Shown here: positions 4,869 to 13,319 of the stretch, piece after piece
How the letters are laid out: every line of letters starts with the position of its first letter
How positions within the stretch are numbered: the first letter of the stretch is position 1
From: Pseudomonadota bacterium
Lineage (GTDB): Bacteria > Pseudomonadota > Alphaproteobacteria > SHVP01
DNA: 64,000 nt
Reading direction: 5' to 3'
NCBI GenBank assembly: GCA_027622715.1
Contig: JAQBYN010000010.1
Span: 1-64,000, forward strand
Program-made: the position numbers and the translations under genes
The notes under the pieces: generated by a model
What the model saw: the letters and a program-made list of their open reading frames with translations, nothing else
Told to the model about the DNA's origin: nothing
Databases searched by the model: none

Positions 4869-6236
4869 TCAGTATGCTTGTTCGGTGAACACGGGATCGA
4901 CGCTGCCATCCCACGCCTCGGCATAACGCTGCAACAACGCCTCAGCCGGGGCTTGCCCAGCCCGCTGAATATCGAATAGCGGATCGAGAAAGCCGCTCTC
5001 GTCGCTGCCCGCGCCGTCCAGGCGCGCCCGATCGCGCAGGCCGGCCCGCGCGAGGGCGAGCACCTGTCCCGCAAGATCGCCCACCGTGCCGCCACGGAAG
5101 GGCGTTTTCAGCGCCAGCTTGGGCACGTCGTCGCGCAATTGTTGATGCTCTTCCAAGGTAAAATCCTTGACCAGATCCCACGCCGCATCGAGCGCACTTT
5201 GCGAATACAGCAGCCCGACCCAGAACGCTGGCAACGCACACAGCCGCCCCCAAGGACCCCCGTCGGCGCCGCGCATCTCGAGAAAGCGCTTCATCCGCAC
5301 TTCCGGGAACAGCGTCGTCATATGATCTTCCCAGTCGCGCAACGTCGGCTTTTCGCCCGGCAACGCCGGTAGCTTGCCGTCGAGAAAATCGCGAAAACTT
5401 TGGCCCGACGTATCGAGGTATGTCCCATCGCGGTAGATGAAATACATCGGCACATCAAGGACGTGATCGGCGTAGCGCTCGAACGACATCCCGTCTTCGA
5501 ACACGAACGGCAATATCCCGCAGCGATCCGGATCGGTGTCGGTCCAAACATGGCTGCGGTACGACATGAACCCGTTCGGTTTGCCCTCAGTGAACGGCGA
5601 GTTGGCGAACAGCGCCGTTGCGATGGGCTGCAACGCGAGACTCACCCGGAATTTCTTCACCATGTCGGCCTCGGACGCGAAGTCGAGGTTCACTTGGACG
5701 GTGCAGGTGCGCAACATCATGTCGAGGCCGAGCGACCCCATTTTGGGCATATAAGCCGACATGATGCCGTAGCGGCCCTTTGGCATCATCGGCACATCGG
5801 CCCGCCGCCACTTCGGATTGAAGCCCAATCCAAGCATGCCCGACCCGATCTCGGCGCCGACTTCTTTCACCTGTTTGAGATGATCGTTCACCTCGATACA
5901 GGTTTCGTGAATCGTCTCAAGCGGCGCGCCCGACAACTCGAACTGCCCGCCCGGCTCAAGCGTGACGCTTTGGCCGTCCATCGTCAGCGCAATTGGCTTG
6001 CCGTCTTCCAAGTGCGGCGTCCAGCCGAACCGGGTCATCCCCTCCAACAAAGCCCGAATACCCGGCGTACCGTCATAAGGCAGCGGGCGCAGCGTCTTCA
6101 GATCGAAGGCGAATTTCTCGTGCTCGGTGCCGATCCGCCACGCTTCGGGCGGTTTGCAGCCCGACGCAATGAAATCGACAAGCTGTTGCTTATTCTCAAC
6201 CGGAATACCGGGATCGTTCGCGGGGGGCGCCGACAA
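4869..6236 (-). CDS. gshA: Glutamate-cysteine ligase, GCS2 type
   Basis: A 455-residue enzyme matching the plant/alphaproteobacterial class of glutamate-cysteine ligases. It has the N-terminal [10 protein letters not shown] box, the central [16 protein letters not shown] block, [20 protein letters not shown] and the [16 protein letters not shown] region. It makes gamma-glutamylcysteine from glutamate, cysteine and ATP, the first step of glutathione synthesis in the cytoplasm. The open frame begins at a TTG (6234-6236) and there is no in-frame ATG before the conserved domain. The 149 bases up to rsmE hold its promoter. Two gamma-glutamylcyclotransferase-like genes lie a few kilobases away. Confidence 0.93.
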
Positions 6237-6385: not shown

Positions 6386-7129
6386 CTAGCGCCAATCCCC
6401 AAGATGCGCCTGCACCAGCGACAACGCCGCGATGGCCGCCGTATCGGCCCGCAATATCCGGGGCCCCAGTGCCACCGGCACCACAAACGAGCGCCCGGCA
6501 ATGGCGTCGCGTTCGGCCGGTGAGAAACCGCCTTCTGGGCCAATCAGGACCGCCCATGGCCCGGGCACTTGTCCGGCTAAGGCCGCGGCGATCGGCGCCG
6601 CGCGGCCCGATTCATCGCAAAACATCAGCCGGCGCCCGACATCCCATCCGTCCAACACGCCGGCCAGCGGTGCGACCGGATCGATGCTCGGCATGGTCAT
6701 GCGGCCACACTGTTCGGCGGCCTCGACCAGCAGCGCCTCGGCACGCGCGACATTGATATCCCGCACGCTCGAGCGTTCGGTCAGCACCGGCACCAGCCGT
6801 GACGCGCCTAGCTCGCCGGCCTTCTCGACCAACACGTCCAGCCGGGTTTTCTTGATCGGCGTGAACACCAGCCAAAGATCAGGCTCATTCACCTGGGCAC
6901 GTTCCACGGCCACCGCGCGGAGCGCACCGGCACTGCGGCCAAGATCGGCGACCTCGGCCCGCCACTCGCCCTCCCGCCCGTTGAACACCAGCAACACGTC
7001 GCCCGTTGCCAGCCGCATCACGTTCTTGAGGTAGTGCACCTGCTTGGCGTCCAACGGCAGAACCGCACCCGCGGCCAAATCGTGGGTGAGGTAGAGGCGG
7101 ATCGACGGCGCGGCGTTGGATGCGGTCAT
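6386..7129 (-). CDS. rsmE: 16S rRNA m3U1498 methyltransferase
   Basis: A 247-residue SPOUT methyltransferase. It has the N-terminal PUA-like domain (RLYLTHDLAAGAVLPL and HYLKNVMRL) and the trefoil-knot SAM site with GPEGGFS (197-203) and LGPRILRADTA (221-231). It methylates N3 of U1498 in 16S rRNA. It is divergent from ubiA with 15 bases between start codons, so the two share promoter DNA and may partly overlap at the transcript level. Confidence 0.96.
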   Translation of the reverse strand: MTASNAAPSIRLYLTHDLAAGAVLPLDAKQVHYLKNVMRLATGDVLLVFNGREGEWRAEVADLGRSAGALRAVAVERAQVNEPDLWLVFTPIKKTRLDVLVEKAGELGASRLVPVLTERSSVRDINVARAEALLVEAAEQCGRMTMPSIDPVAPLAGVLDGWDVGRRLMFCDESGRAAPIAAALAGQVPGPWAVLIGPEGGFSPAERDAIAGRSFVVPVALGPRILRADTAAIAALSLVQAHLGDWR

Positions 7130-7144
7130 GCTAGAACCATAGCA

Positions 7145-8098
7145 ATGACTTCACCCAACGACACGGTTCTTCCCGACTCAGTGCGCGGCCATTGGGTCGA
7201 CCGCAGCCCCGCCCGCTTGCGCCCCTATTTGCGCCTGTCGCGGCTCGACCGCCCGATCGGCACTTGGTTGTTGCTGTGGCCGGGCTGGTGGTCGATCGCG
7301 CTGGCGTCGGCCTTGAGCGCTGGCGCGCCCGACACCCGCGCTTGGTTCGGCCTGCCCGACCTCTTCTTATTGGCGTTGTTCGGCATCGGCGCCACCGCGA
7401 TGCGCGGCGCCGGCTGCACCTACAACGACATCGTTGACCGCAAATACGATGCGCAGGTTGAGCGCACCCGGGGGCGTCCCATCCCGTCGGGCGCCGTCAG
7501 CGTGCCGCGCGCCGTTGCCTGGCTGGTGATCCAAGCGCTGATCGGCTTTGCCGTCCTGGCCAGCTTTAATACCTTCGCGTTTTGGCTCGGCGTCGCGTCG
7601 CTCGGCCTGATCGCCGCCTACCCGTTCATGAAACGCATTACGTGGTGGCCCCAACTGTGGCTCGGGCTGACGTTCAATTACGGCGCGCTTTTGGGCTGGG
7701 CCGCGGTGATCGGCGAACTATCCGCCGCGCCCTTGCTGCTCTACGCCGCCGGCATTTTTTGGACCCTGGGCTACGATACGATCTACGCCCACCAGGACAC
7801 CGAGGACGACGCGTTGGTCGGCGTGAAGTCGAGCGCCCGCTGGCTCGGCGCCCGCACCCGGCCCTTCCTCTACGCCACCTACGCCATGACTATCGTGATC
7901 CTCGCCGCAGCCGGCGCGACCGCCGGCCTGCATTGGGCGTTCTATCCGCTGCTGGGGGTGGCCGCGCTGCATCTCGCCTGGCAGGCCCGCGCCCTCAAGA
8001 TCGACTCGCCCGAAGACTGCCTCGCCAAATTCCGCGCCAACCACCGCACCGGTTGGCTCGTCTTCATCGCCGTCGTGGTGGGGAGTGTGTTGGCCTAA
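7145..8098 (+). CDS. ubiA: 4-hydroxybenzoate octaprenyltransferase
   Basis: A 317-residue polytopic membrane prenyltransferase. The first aspartate motif NDIVDRKYD is at 94-102 and the second is YAHQDTEDD. Several hydrophobic helices follow. It attaches the polyprenyl chain to 4-hydroxybenzoate in ubiquinone synthesis. The ATG at 7145 was chosen because the longer open frame would run through the start of rsmE. The next ubiquinone-type gene, ubiD, is about 2.3 kb downstream on the same strand. Confidence 0.96.
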   Translation: MTSPNDTVLPDSVRGHWVDRSPARLRPYLRLSRLDRPIGTWLLLWPGWWSIALASALSAGAPDTRAWFGLPDLFLLALFGIGATAMRGAGCTYNDIVDRKYDAQVERTRGRPIPSGAVSVPRAVAWLVIQALIGFAVLASFNTFAFWLGVASLGLIAAYPFMKRITWWPQLWLGLTFNYGALLGWAAVIGELSAAPLLLYAAGIFWTLGYDTIYAHQDTEDDALVGVKSSARWLGARTRPFLYATYAMTIVILAAAGATAGLHWAFYPLLGVAALHLAWQARALKIDSPEDCLAKFRANHRTGWLVFIAVVVGSVLA

Positions 8099-8131: not shown

Positions 8132-8896
8132 CTACTGCAACGTTGGGATCAGCTGATTGTAGCCCTTCAGCTTCTTCACTTTGATGCCGTTCTTTTTCAG
8201 CTGGGCCGTATAGGCATCGCGCGCTGCCGCATCGGTCGTGGTCTTCAGGACAAAATCGTCCAGCGTCATGTCCGGCGCGATCTCTTGATGCACGGCCGCG
8301 AGCACCTGGTCGTGCGGCAACTTTTCGAGCGTGCGCTCGCGGGCAACCACTTCGGCGTAGGCACACATGGCACCCGCGTGCCCCAGCGCCGGCGCAGCAC
8401 TTTGATACATAAAGACTTCGTCGCGCATACCGACGGCGTCGATCATCGCCAGAATGCCGGTCAGCTTGCCGAAGGTGTAGGCCGAGCCATCACGCGCCGG
8501 CCCCAATTCGGTATCGTGCATGACCTCAAGCTGCGCTTCGGTCAGCCACGTCACAAACGTGGTCAGCCGCGTGCCCGGCGACGCCACCAACATTGCCGGG
8601 ATCGCGCCGTAGCTCGAAAACCGCGCCGAATAGGCCACGTCGTACCCGGTGAGCGCCGTCTTGAGCACCGGGATGCCTTCTTCTTCGCTCAAGTCGGCAT
8701 ACTTGCTCGCCAGTTGTTGCGGCGAGGCGTTCGAACCGTAGGCCAGAACCGGGATACGCTGCGCCGTGTCGTCGGGCGGGTTCATCCGTTTCAGCGGCAC
8801 CGGCGCGCCTTGGAACAGTACATAGCTCGTGCTCGGCACGTCGTAAGGATAGCTCTTCGCTCGGACGAGCCGTTCAGCGTCGGTCGGTTCAGCCAT
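8132..8896 (-). CDS. Gamma-glutamylcyclotransferase-like protein A
   Basis: A 254-residue protein. The ATG at 8894-8896 starts directly before the region shared with its paralogue at 9622-10362; the frame itself is open further upstream. Residues 51-58 read LAYGSNAS, the YGSN loop typical of the gamma-glutamylcyclotransferase/AIG2 fold. A segment like the fold's second strand set follows (YSARFSSYGAIPAMLVASPG), then an acidic residue at the usual catalytic position (Glu130 in HDTELG). The N-terminal box SYPYDVPSTSYVL and the C-terminal 80 residues are shared with the paralogue but not with classic cyclotransferases. If active it would release 5-oxoproline from a gamma-glutamyl compound; this is inference from motifs. 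It lies convergent to ubiA. Confidence 0.6.
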   Translation of the reverse strand: MAEPTDAERLVRAKSYPYDVPSTSYVLFQGAPVPLKRMNPPDDTAQRIPVLAYGSNASPQQLASKYADLSEEEGIPVLKTALTGYDVAYSARFSSYGAIPAMLVASPGTRLTTFVTWLTEAQLEVMHDTELGPARDGSAYTFGKLTGILAMIDAVGMRDEVFMYQSAAPALGHAGAMCAYAEVVARERTLEKLPHDQVLAAVHQEIAPDMTLDDFVLKTTTDAAARDAYTAQLKKNGIKVKKLKGYNQLIPTLQ

Positions 8897-8973
8897 TACT
8901 CTACTTTCTGTCGTGTCATCGCCGGGCGTTTGTACATGATTTGGCGCAACCATGCGCAGCCGTCCCAGATTGC

Positions 8974-9522
8974 TCAGGGCAGTGGCGTCGCCCCGCCCGG
9001 CACCGGTACCTCGTAACAATTCAGCACCATGCTGATCATCGTGTAATACCCCAGCAACCCGACCAGATCGACCACACCCGCCTCACCCAGCTGCGCATGC
9101 GCCTCGGCATAAACCGCGTCCTCAACGCCGTGCCGCTCATGCGTCGCCACCGCAAAGTCATAGACCGCTCTTTCGTCCGCCTGCATCAGGGCGCGCGGAT
9201 CGCCGCCGGTGCGCATGGCCTCAATGATGTCCGCGCTCAGCCCGCCTTGGGCGGCAAACGGCGCATGCATGTACCACTCGAACTGGGCCGTCCAGAATCG
9301 CGCCGTCACCAAGATTGCCAATTCCGACAGTCGCGGCGGCAACGCCGAATCGAACCGCAAGAAAGCCCCCAACGCCTGCGCGCGGGCGCATAATTCGGGA
9401 CTGCGCAACAAGACATGGAACGGCCCCTGCACTGCGCCGCGCGGGCCGGCGATCATGGCGTCGTACACCTTACGCTGGGCGGGCGTCAGCGCAGCGGGAT
9501 TCACTTCGGCAAAACGGGTCAC
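8974..9522 (-). CDS. Carboxymuconolactone decarboxylase/AhpD-like family protein
   Basis: A 182-residue all-helical protein with the family's central block LSELAILVTARFWTAQFEWY followed by MHAPFA. The E-W-x-x-H pattern is present, but the two-cysteine AhpD motif is absent, so it belongs with the carboxymuconolactone-decarboxylase side rather than peroxidase reductants. True substrate unknown. It sits between the two gamma-glutamylcyclotransferase-like paralogues on the same strand, with 77 and 99 base gaps. Confidence 0.8.
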   Translation of the reverse strand: MTRFAEVNPAALTPAQRKVYDAMIAGPRGAVQGPFHVLLRSPELCARAQALGAFLRFDSALPPRLSELAILVTARFWTAQFEWYMHAPFAAQGGLSADIIEAMRTGGDPRALMQADERAVYDFAVATHERHGVEDAVYAEAHAQLGEAGVVDLVGLLGYYTMISMVLNCYEVPVPGGATPLP

Positions 9523-9621
9523 GGCAGGCCTCCGATTGATCGATTTCGGTGATATACCATGCGCTGCCCGCCGCGCATCACCGGCGCGCCCGGCAATCGA
9601 GGGCCGTTATTTGCGGTGGCA

Positions 9622-10362
9622 CTACGTCTTGGGCAGTATCTGCGTGTAGCCAGGCAGCTCAACCGGCACCGCATTGGCGCGAAGTGCCGTGGTACATCGT
9701 GCCCGCAAGGCATCGTCCTTCACCAGAGCCACCAAGAAATCATCAAACGTCAGATCCGGCGCCTGCCGCTCGCGTACCGCTTCCAGCACCCGTGGATGGG
9801 CGAAGTCGGGGAACCGTCGATTCTTTGCCGGTAACTCGCTGTAGGCGCATATCGCGCCATCATGGCCCATCGCCGGGACGGCCGAGCGATACGTGAAGAC
9901 GCGGTCGCGCGCGCCCAGGCCCTCGATGTCGAGCGCGATGTCCTGCAACTCACCAAAGGTGAAGAACGGTCCATGGTCATCCTCGAACCCCAATTCGATA
10001 TCGGTAAGCCAGTCGCGCTGGTCGGGCGTCAGAAAGGCGACGAACACCGTGGCCACGGTCCCCGGTGATGGCGCCAGCATTGCGGGCATGGCGCCGTGGG
10101 GTTCGAAGCGCGCCATGTAAACCAGATCGAACTCGGCAAGCGTGGCGCGCAGCACCGGTGTGACCTGCCCAGGAAATGCCTGGGCGAACACCGATGGCGA
10201 AGCGTTGCCGCCCAGCGCCAGCACCAGCGTGCGCGCCTCCAAGTCCTCCGGCGGTGAGGTTTCGGCCAACGGCACCGTACGAATCCCGTCCCAGACGTAG
10301 CTCGTCGGCGATTGAGCGTAGGGGTAGTCGCGAGCCCGAGCGATGATATCATCGTCGTTCAT
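9622..10362 (-). CDS. Gamma-glutamylcyclotransferase-like protein B (paralogue of A)
   Basis: A 246-residue protein clearly related to the product of 8132-8896. Shared blocks are DYPYAQSPTSYV, the NAS-P turn, YMARFEPHGAMPAMLAPSPG, an acidic residue (Glu123 in TDIELG), RSAVPAMGHDGAICAYSE, and a C-terminus ending GYTQILPKT against GYNQLIPTLQ. Its glycine loop reads LALGGNAS (48-55) where copy A has LAYGSNAS, so the hallmark Tyr and Ser are lost while the acidic residue is kept. The ATG at 10360-10362 begins the shared region. It is divergent from ubiD with 73 bases between starts. Confidence 0.6.
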   Translation of the reverse strand: MNDDDIIARARDYPYAQSPTSYVWDGIRTVPLAETSPPEDLEARTLVLALGGNASPSVFAQAFPGQVTPVLRATLAEFDLVYMARFEPHGAMPAMLAPSPGTVATVFVAFLTPDQRDWLTDIELGFEDDHGPFFTFGELQDIALDIEGLGARDRVFTYRSAVPAMGHDGAICAYSELPAKNRRFPDFAHPRVLEAVRERQAPDLTFDDFLVALVKDDALRARCTTALRANAVPVELPGYTQILPKT

Positions 10363-10435: not shown

Positions 10436-11938
10436 ATGTCCTTCGCCTCTCTCCGCGACTTCATCCAGCACCTCGAAGCCCGGGGCGATCTTGTGCGTGT
10501 GCGCGAACCGGTCTCGACCCACCTGGAGATGACCGAAATTCAAACCCGCCTGCTGGCCGAGGGCGGCCCGGCGGTGTTGTTCGAAAATCCGGTCGACGCC
10601 GACGGCAAGCCGTGCGCGATGCCGGTCCTGGTCAATCTGTTTGGCACGGTGACCCGTGTTGCCGCCGGCATTGGCCGCGCGCCCGCGCAGCTGCGCGAGG
10701 TCGGCGAAACCCTCGCCTTCTTGCGCCAGCCCGAGCCACCCGGCGGCTGGCGCGAAGCGGTCGCCATGTTGCCGATGCTCAAGACCGTGATGGCGATGAA
10801 ACCCGCCACCGTCACCCACGCGCCCTGCCAAGACGTGGTGTGGACCGGCGCCGACATCGACCTCGGCAAGCTTCCGGTGCAAATGTGCTGGCCCGGCGAA
10901 CCCGCACCGCTGATCACCTGGCCGCTCATTGTCACCAAAGATGCCGACGAACGCTTCAACCTCGGCATCTACCGCATGCAGGTGACGGGGCCCGACACCA
11001 CGTTGATGCGCTGGCTCGCGCACCGCGGCGGCGCGCAACATTTCGCGCGTTGGAAAAAAGCCCACCCCGGCGAACACATGCCGGTCGCCGCCGTTATCAG
11101 CGCTGATCCCGGCACCGTCATTGCCGCCGTCACCCCGGTGCCGGAAAATTTATCCGAGTACCAATTCGCCGGACTGCTACGCGGCAAGAAAGTGCCGTTG
11201 ATCGACTGCGTCTCGATCCCGCTCAAGGTCCCGGCCGAAGCCGAAATCGTCATCGAAGGCCACGTGCTCCCGGATGACGAGCGCGATGAAGGCCCCTACG
11301 GCGATCACACCGGCTATTACAATGCTGTTGAGCGCTTTCCCGTCTTCAAGGTCAGCGCCATCACCATGCGGCGCGACCCGATCTATTTGTCGACCTTCAC
11401 CGGCCGTCCGCCCGACGAGCCCAGCGTGCTCGGCGAAGCGCTCAACGAAGTCTTCGTGCCGCTACTGCAACAACAATTCCCCGAGATCACCGACTTCTGG
11501 CTGCCGCCCGAAGGCTGCAGCTACCGCATCGCGGTGGTCTCGATGAAGAAAGCGTATCCCGGCCACGCCAAGCGGGTGATGATGGCGGTGTGGTCGTACT
11601 TGCGCCAATTCATGTACACCAAGTGGGTCATCGTGGTGGACGACGACATCAACGCGCGCGATTGGAAGGATGTCATGTGGGCGATCGCGACCCGCATGGA
11701 CCCGGCGCGCGACATCACCGTCATCGAAAACACGCCGATCGACTATCTCGACTTCGCCTCGCCGCAATCGGGCTTGGGCTCAAAAATCGGCCTCGACGCG
11801 ACCAACAAATGGCCGCCCGAAACCAACCGCGCTTGGGGCACCAAGATCCGCATGAGCGACGAGGTGATCGCCACCGTCACCGAGAAATGGCCCCGCCTGG
11901 GGTTGCCCGGGTCGGGCAAGTCGATCTGGCCGGATTAG
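10436..11938 (+). CDS. ubiD: UbiD-family decarboxylase (4-hydroxy-3-polyprenylbenzoate decarboxylase)
   Basis: A 500-residue protein of full family length. It has the N-terminal [20 protein letters not shown], the central cofactor and active-site stretch with [12 protein letters not shown] near residue 285, and [20 protein letters not shown]. UbiD enzymes use prenylated FMN made by UbiX to decarboxylate the polyprenyl-hydroxybenzoate in ubiquinone synthesis. No ubiX is seen in this window. The ubiA gene 2.3 kb upstream supports a ubiquinone role over a catabolic one. Confidence 0.93.
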
Positions 11939-11951
11939 ACTGAAGGAACAC

Positions 11952-13319
11952 ATGACCACAACCACAGTAAATACGCCGGTCCCGGCGCTGGCACCGGCGA
12001 CACCCGTCGCCAAACACGATCCCGTCGACACCGCCTTCGGGCGCGAAGAACTTTATGCGCGCCGGCTGTCTCTAAGGGTCCGCACCATCCTGGTGATCGC
12101 GGTGCTCGCCTTCCTGCCCTTCGTCGTCAATCCGCCCGAGGTCCTGCCCTACTTCTATGGCCTGAGCCTGTTTTTCGTCCTGTCGGCGTGGCTCCACTAT
12201 CGCATCACCAAGGCCGGCAACCGGAGCATCGCTTGGTCCTACCTGTTTGCGACATTCGACGTCGTGTTGATCACCTGGATCCTGCTGGTACCGGTGCCCT
12301 ACATCGAACCGTTCTTGCCGCCTGGCGCGCAGTTGTGGTTTGGCGGCTCGGCCTACATGTTTATCTTCATTGCCACGGCGGCGTTCACCTATGCGCCGGG
12401 CGTGGTGGTGTGGACCGGGATTGCCGCCGCCGCCGCCTGGTGGGTCGGCGTGCTGTGGATTCTCCAGAGCCCCGAGACCTTCACCTTCAATGATGTTGCG
12501 GCGATAACCGCGATGACCGTCGACCAGCGCAACGATGTGATGGCTGATTTCCGGCGCGTGGATCTGGGTATCCAAGCGCAGACATCATTTCTCTTCGTCA
12601 TCGTTGCCGCTGCGCTTGCTGCCTTCGTGTGGCGGGTCCGCAAGTTGGTCTACGACAGCGCCACGGCAGAACGGGCGCGCGGCAATTTGGCGCGCTTTTT
12701 CTCACCCAATATCGTGGCCGAATTATCTACGCACGACGAACCGCTGCGCGCCGGTCGCCGCCAGGACATCGCGATTATGTTTTCCGACATCGTTGGGTTT
12801 ACCGAATTGGCCGAGGATCGCTCGCCAGACGACGTGCTGGCGCTGCTGCGCGAGGTCCACGGCATCGCAGCGCGGCAAGTTTTCGCCCATCACGGCACGC
12901 TCGACAAATATTTGGGCGACGGCGTCATGGCGACCTTCGGCACACCGACTACGGCCGATGACGATGCCGACCGCGCGCTGGCCTGCGCCAAGGCCATTCT
13001 GCGCGACCTCGCCCAGTTCAACGCGCAACAATCCGGCCCCGCGGTGCGCCTCGGCATTGGCTTGCACTACGGCGACGTGGTGTTGGGCGACATCGGCAGC
13101 GACGAGCGGCTCGAATACACCGTCATCGGCGATACCGTGAATGTCGCCAGCCGGCTCGAACGTTTGACCCGCCAGATCGGCGCGGATCTCGTCATCAGCG
13201 ACGCCTTGTGCCAACACTTGCGCGACCCCGGCCTTGCCGACGGTTTGGTGCGGGGCGAACCGGCTCAGCTGCGCGGCCGCGAGGAACCAGTGGCGTTTTG
13301 GTCGTTCAGCACCGCGTGA
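11952..13319 (+). CDS. Membrane-bound class III adenylate cyclase
   Basis: A 455-residue protein. About six hydrophobic helices lie in residues 43-225, followed by a catalytic domain (about 240-450). Metal-binding aspartates are Asp279 (in MFSDIVGFT) and Asp323 (in LGDGVMATFG). Lys319 and Asp394 (in VIGDTVNVASRLE) fit adenine selection, so the product is probably cyclic AMP. It starts 13 bases after ubiD, with AAGGA five bases before its ATG, so cotranscription with ubiD is likely. The membrane sensor portion matches no domain I can name and the signal is unknown. Confidence 0.9.
   Translation: MTTTTVNTPVPALAPATPVAKHDPVDTAFGREELYARRLSLRVRTILVIAVLAFLPFVVNPPEVLPYFYGLSLFFVLSAWLHYRITKAGNRSIAWSYLFATFDVVLITWILLVPVPYIEPFLPPGAQLWFGGSAYMFIFIATAAFTYAPGVVVWTGIAAAAAWWVGVLWILQSPETFTFNDVAAITAMTVDQRNDVMADFRRVDLGIQAQTSFLFVIVAAALAAFVWRVRKLVYDSATAERARGNLARFFSPNIVAELSTHDEPLRAGRRQDIAIMFSDIVGFTELAEDRSPDDVLALLREVHGIAARQVFAHHGTLDKYLGDGVMATFGTPTTADDDADRALACAKAILRDLAQFNAQQSGPAVRLGIGLHYGDVVLGDIGSDERLEYTVIGDTVNVASRLERLTRQIGADLVISDALCQHLRDPGLADGLVRGEPAQLRGREEPVAFWSFSTA

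Follow-up and report, generated by a model that had tools for sequence, protein, structure and literature searches.

The window, i.e. the whole 64,000-nucleotide stretch of DNA that we analysed, harbours two related genes on the minus strand, which encode proteins of 254 residues (copy A, positions 8132-8896) and 246 residues (copy B, positions 9622-10362). Copy A is a widespread, usually single-copy member of a family predicted to adopt the GGCT fold, and copy B is a diverged paralogue seen in the window's genome only. An earlier note had proposed the paralogy of the two products. Its coordinates proved correct, and the proteins indeed align end to end, with 43% identity over 248 columns (189 bits, E=9e-65). 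The GC contents at the three codon positions are gene-like in both frames (.63/.45/.78 for A,.68/.47/.76 for B), those of the neighbouring genes are similar, and those of shadow ORFs differ. Both products share an N-terminal YPY box and a C-terminal part of approximately 75-80 residues. Copy A harbours a YGSN loop (residues 53-56, codons at 8729-8740, minus strand), replaced by LGGN in copy B, and both have a Glu residue at equivalent positions, E130 in A (codon at 8507-8509, minus strand) and E123 in B (codon at 9994-9996, minus strand). These motifs had all been described before, but the D-x-E-L-G context suggested for the Glu residue is not a family motif, as only the E is invariant.

A gene for a CMD-type protein of 182 residues is found between the two copies, on the same strand (8974-9522), as previously described. 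Its best Pfam model is PF02627 (E 1.7e-4), with a score of 21.9 bits that is just under the cut-off of 23. Copy A is convergent with ubiA, coding for 4-hydroxybenzoate octaprenyltransferase (7145-8098, plus strand), which forms a block with rsmE (6386-7129) and gshA, coding for glutamate-cysteine ligase (4869-6236), both on the minus strand. On the other side, copy B is divergent from ubiD, coding for a UbiD family decarboxylase (10436-11938, plus strand). The gene that follows ubiD on the same strand (11952-13319) codes for a protein in which one domain resembles class III nucleotide cyclases, and related proteins are also encoded next to ubiD in some relatives (L024 and L029).

Fold, sequence relationships and predicted active site

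AlphaFold2 yielded confident models of both proteins, with pLDDT values of 91.5 for A (11 sequences) and 93 for B (22 sequences) and a pTM of 0.88. All matches in the PDB at E<0.001 in Foldseek searches, seven for A and three for B, are GGCT/AIG2-type proteins. Human GGCT (3cry) is the best match for A, with an E-value of 1.7e-4 and a TM score of 0.54 by target, and it was also retrieved with B (E 8.6e-4). Profile-profile comparison of 114 family members with ordinary alphaproteobacterial YGSN proteins of the AIG2_2 type gave a probability of 91% (P 9.7e-7), with GSN aligned on GSN and E130 on the conserved Glu of the latter proteins. Five column-shuffled controls each remained below 0.5%, and a slightly larger AIG2_2-type set gave the same result. 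Comparisons with GGACT-only and ChaC sets were negative, although these sets of three or four sequences were perhaps too small; the nearest sequence relatives would therefore be AIG2_2-like proteins.

Curated models did not recognize the family. Scans of A, B and individual members of two family alignments against Pfam and NCBIfam identified no GGCT-type model, with no match to PF06094 (GGACT) or PF13772 (AIG2_2) at E<=10 and none to PF04752 (ChaC) for A, B or the scanned relatives. Searches of PDB sequences with one single protein and two profiles returned nothing useful, and our literature search found no paper on the family. The GGCT core corresponds to about residues 48-173 of A, of which residues ~50-173 are matched by the profile. 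Outside this core, the A/B family has additions of its own, the N-terminal YPY segment and the C-terminal helical part, but some of its C-terminal helices could correspond to GGCT helices. By predicted fold and profile similarity, the A/B family is part of the GGCT-fold superfamily and lies outside the curated GGACT, AIG2_2 and ChaC models, and as judged against the Pfam and NCBIfam collections it is undescribed. The earlier idea of a new cyclotransferase subfamily is partly supported, by the fold of both copies, the profile homology and the lack of a matching Pfam or NCBIfam model; its cyclotransferase function is a prediction from sequences and models.

We then assessed residue conservation in 114 sequences, consisting of 112 relatives plus A and B, and scored the changes in B against the 112 relatives. 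Eight positions are fully invariant in the latter, namely G54, N56, P59, K65, Y96, E130, Y140 and Y164 (A numbering), and E130 is present in all 114 proteins. At the loop that reads YG[ST][LN] in the GGCT-fold superfamily, G and N are invariant in the A/B family and S is found in 111 of the 114 sequences. In contrast, the first position is variable, with H in 27 proteins, V in 26, C in 19, Y in 16 and other residues in the remainder. According to work on human ChaC2, GGCT enzymes rely on a Glu as the acid/base residue and also have conserved Tyr residues; Tyr6 of ChaC2 is the loop Tyr conserved in characterised enzymes (PMC7022552). E130 and the Tyr that follows it are in line with this catalytic layout, whereas the variability of the loop Tyr in the A/B family implies that binding must differ.

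Copy B retains G54, N56, P59, E130 and Y164 but carries substitutions at three otherwise fully invariant positions, K65A, Y96H and Y140F, and at three nearly invariant ones, H127T, T129I and M126L, in addition to S55G in the loop (A numbering throughout). These changes are direct evidence, at the level of the sequence, that copy B has been rebuilt. It had been proposed that LGGN marks this alteration. We did not retain LGGN as the telling change because the Tyr of YGSN is found in only 16 of the 114 proteins and is no family feature; the unusual event in this loop is the replacement of Ser by Gly. The notion of an altered copy B stands on the three invariant positions instead. Copy B is most likely changed in its substrate or devoid of catalysis.

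Distribution of the family and origin of copy B

We identified the family in 79 of 385 sampled genomes of Alphaproteobacteria, nearly always as one copy, and approximately 80% of the genomes lack it. In a broader draw over the phylum, matches were confined to Alphaproteobacteria. Contig searches with a single-protein query yielded no relatives, and these were recovered with an alignment as the query. Carriers include Kiloniella, Pelagibius, Skermanella, Sneathiella, Rhodovibrio and Magnetovibrio. All ten genomes of the window's order possess the gene, with two copies in the window's genome alone.

Copy B was found in no other of these ten genomes. In G001, which belongs to the same genus and is nearly complete, ubiD, the CMD-type gene, the A gene and ubiA follow one another in this order without B; the contig of a second genome (G002) stops at A, so the absence of B there cannot be read from it. 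In phylogenetic trees, B joined the A proteins of the same genus with supports of 99/95, and of 98/97 in a second analysis. It shares 44-46% identity with these proteins, and its branch length is 1.15, compared with 0.05-0.12 for them. One tree set B outside the same-genus A clade, but grouping A and B together was not rejected (p-AU 0.27), and the long branch of B could mislead its placement. This long branch, the loss of invariant residues and the absence of B from the near-complete genome would also be expected of a decaying gene or of one acquired from elsewhere, rather than of a functional duplicate. We regard this explanation as unlikely, since the frame is intact and full-length, its codon-position GC is gene-like and its predicted fold is confident, and since the closest relatives of B are the A proteins of the same genus, which argues against a distant transfer.

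Genetic environment

We examined whether the organization of the locus is conserved. The joint conservation of A, B and the CMD-type gene, raised as a question in the earlier note, was not found. In addition to the restriction of B to one genome, the CMD-type gene is also present in G001 but not near the family gene in other genera, and the trio is therefore no conserved unit. The vicinity of gshA had been mentioned as a possible hint at glutathione. Although gshA is indeed present, it is part of the same old ubiA-rsmE-gshA block as rsmE, and this block surrounds many family members, with rsmE and gshA close to the family gene in 52 and 45 of 80 loci, respectively. We consequently rejected gshA as specific evidence for glutathione.

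The location between ubiD and ubiA, on the strand opposite both, is shared by the relatives in the order and by most of the 80 named loci. In the class, 40 genomes have the family gene and ubiD on one contig, and in 36 of them the two genes are divergent and no more than 6 kb apart. In a survey of 61 carriers that were chosen rather than randomly sampled, 44 had the family gene and ubiA on one contig, and the two genes are within 7 kb in 37 of them (36 convergent), including 13 of the 14 genomes without a ubiD of this type. In one genome of the same family (G009, contig C5:37509-39201), the gene adjoins ubiA and no close ubiD was found. Furthermore, ubiD is present in 58 of 79 carriers and 106 of 306 non-carriers (Fisher p 7e-10, shared ancestry ignored).

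These associations would be explained if the family acted in ubiquinone synthesis or its control, enzymatically or not. However, a distance of at most 10 kb between ubiD and ubiA is likewise seen in 31 of 37 genomes that lack the family, and the position of the family gene may thus reflect inherited gene order; the ubiD-ubiA frame is older than the family gene or independent of it. A role in the ubiquinone pathway must also be reconciled with the large proportion of sampled alphaproteobacteria devoid of the family, with the orientation of the gene opposite to ubiA and ubiD, which precludes a shared operon, with its location elsewhere in some lineages (G049, G167, G175 and G204) and with the non-random choice of genomes for the ubiA survey. 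On balance, we consider such a role quite improbable. A more specific variant, likewise improbable, is the most speculative reading that we envisage: the family enzymes might use a dedicated substrate tied to quinone or aromatic metabolism, which would account for the long-standing location of their genes between those for UbiD and UbiA. Copy B might then be a neofunctionalised duplicate with the same fold and a rebuilt pocket.

Other neighbours are limited to certain lineages. In 20 of the 80 loci, a gene for a protein of ~594 residues, whose start is GAF-like and whose C-terminal half resembles HD-GYP proteins, is located directly upstream of the family gene, co-directional with it and sometimes overlapping (L064, L066, L072, L073, L078, L081, L083-L085, L089, L091, L092, L094, L095, L106, L111, L135, L136 and others), which suggests that the two genes form an operon in that lineage. 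In three Sneathiella-type loci, away from ubiD and ubiA, a gene for a CheY-like receiver precedes the family gene by a few bases (L103:6552-6962, L121:6546-6959 and L127:2762-3175). In Kiloniella-type genomes, a downstream gene pair resembles those for S-adenosylmethionine decarboxylase and spermidine synthase, as assigned by eye (L102, L110, L123, L126, L129, L133, L134, L139 and L140). These polyamine-related neighbours deserve mention, as the substrates of GGACT are gamma-glutamyl amines.

Proposed function and comparison with known proteins

Taken together, the sequence and model data make it reasonably probable that copy A is a GGCT-type enzyme of an undescribed alphaproteobacterial family and that copy B is an altered duplicate. 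In copy A, the G-S-N loop would hold a glutamyl-like group and E130 would serve as the acid/base residue. The alpha-amino group of the substrate, which need not be glutathione, would then attack the amide of the side chain, which would yield an amine together with 5-oxoproline or an analogous cyclic product. Copy B would have arisen by duplication of the same-genus gene, and it has kept the predicted fold and the Glu residue and lost three otherwise invariant side chains. Counted against this reading are the variable loop Tyr, the lack of a direct Pfam or NCBIfam match to GGCT, the presence of B in one genome only and the occurrence of the fold in domains that are not cyclotransferases, such as that of allophanate hydrolase (4iss), which is among the Foldseek matches.

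Alternatively, the family might consist of GGCT-fold binding or regulatory proteins, or of enzymes that catalyse another reaction, with no cyclotransferase activity and with B as a more relaxed version. The free variation of the first loop position, the upstream co-directional signalling genes of the GAF/HD-GYP-like and CheY-like types and the presence of other GGCT-fold domains in non-GGCT proteins are compatible with this idea. We nevertheless consider it a minority possibility, as E130, K65, Y96, Y140 and Y164 are invariant in 112 relatives that often share only ~35% identity, a pattern usually seen in active sites, and as the Glu and the following Tyr match the GGCT catalytic layout (PMC7022552). 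Approximately one-fifth of the sampled alphaproteobacterial genomes thus carry a family that has an active-site-like invariant set and is absent from Pfam and NCBIfam. It would form a separate branch of the GGCT-fold superfamily, only a few members of which have, to our knowledge, known substrates. With the A/B pair, an intact and a rebuilt predicted pocket can be compared in a natural setting on one scaffold, and the adjacency to ubiA and ubiD represents a testable, though unproven, lead.

Human GGCT (3cry, 2i5t, 2rbh) shares with the A/B family the core fold, the G-S-N loop and the Glu closing the helix that comes next to the second long strand in the sequence, with a Tyr after this Glu. It differs by its low identity (~13%) and by a match limited to ~127 columns at the TM score of 0.54, which leaves out the YPY segment and the C-terminal helices of the family, and the loop Tyr is not conserved in the latter. 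The AIG2_2/GGACT-type proteins of Alphaproteobacteria (PF13772, PF06094) align over residues ~50-173 with the GSN and the Glu in register, but they are only ~140-160 residues long, they lack the YPY segment, and their Pfam models match none of the scanned family members. ChaC proteins (PF04752) have the same fold, with 6ky1 and 6ky0 among the Foldseek matches, and the conserved Glu, but the profile probability was 0.1% (with three ChaC sequences only), the Pfam model gave no match, and their loop is GSL rather than GSN. Finally, the C-terminal domain of allophanate hydrolase (4iss) displays weak similarity of fold (E 0.05 with A and 0.03 with B), whereas A and B are stand-alone proteins with no amidase domain.
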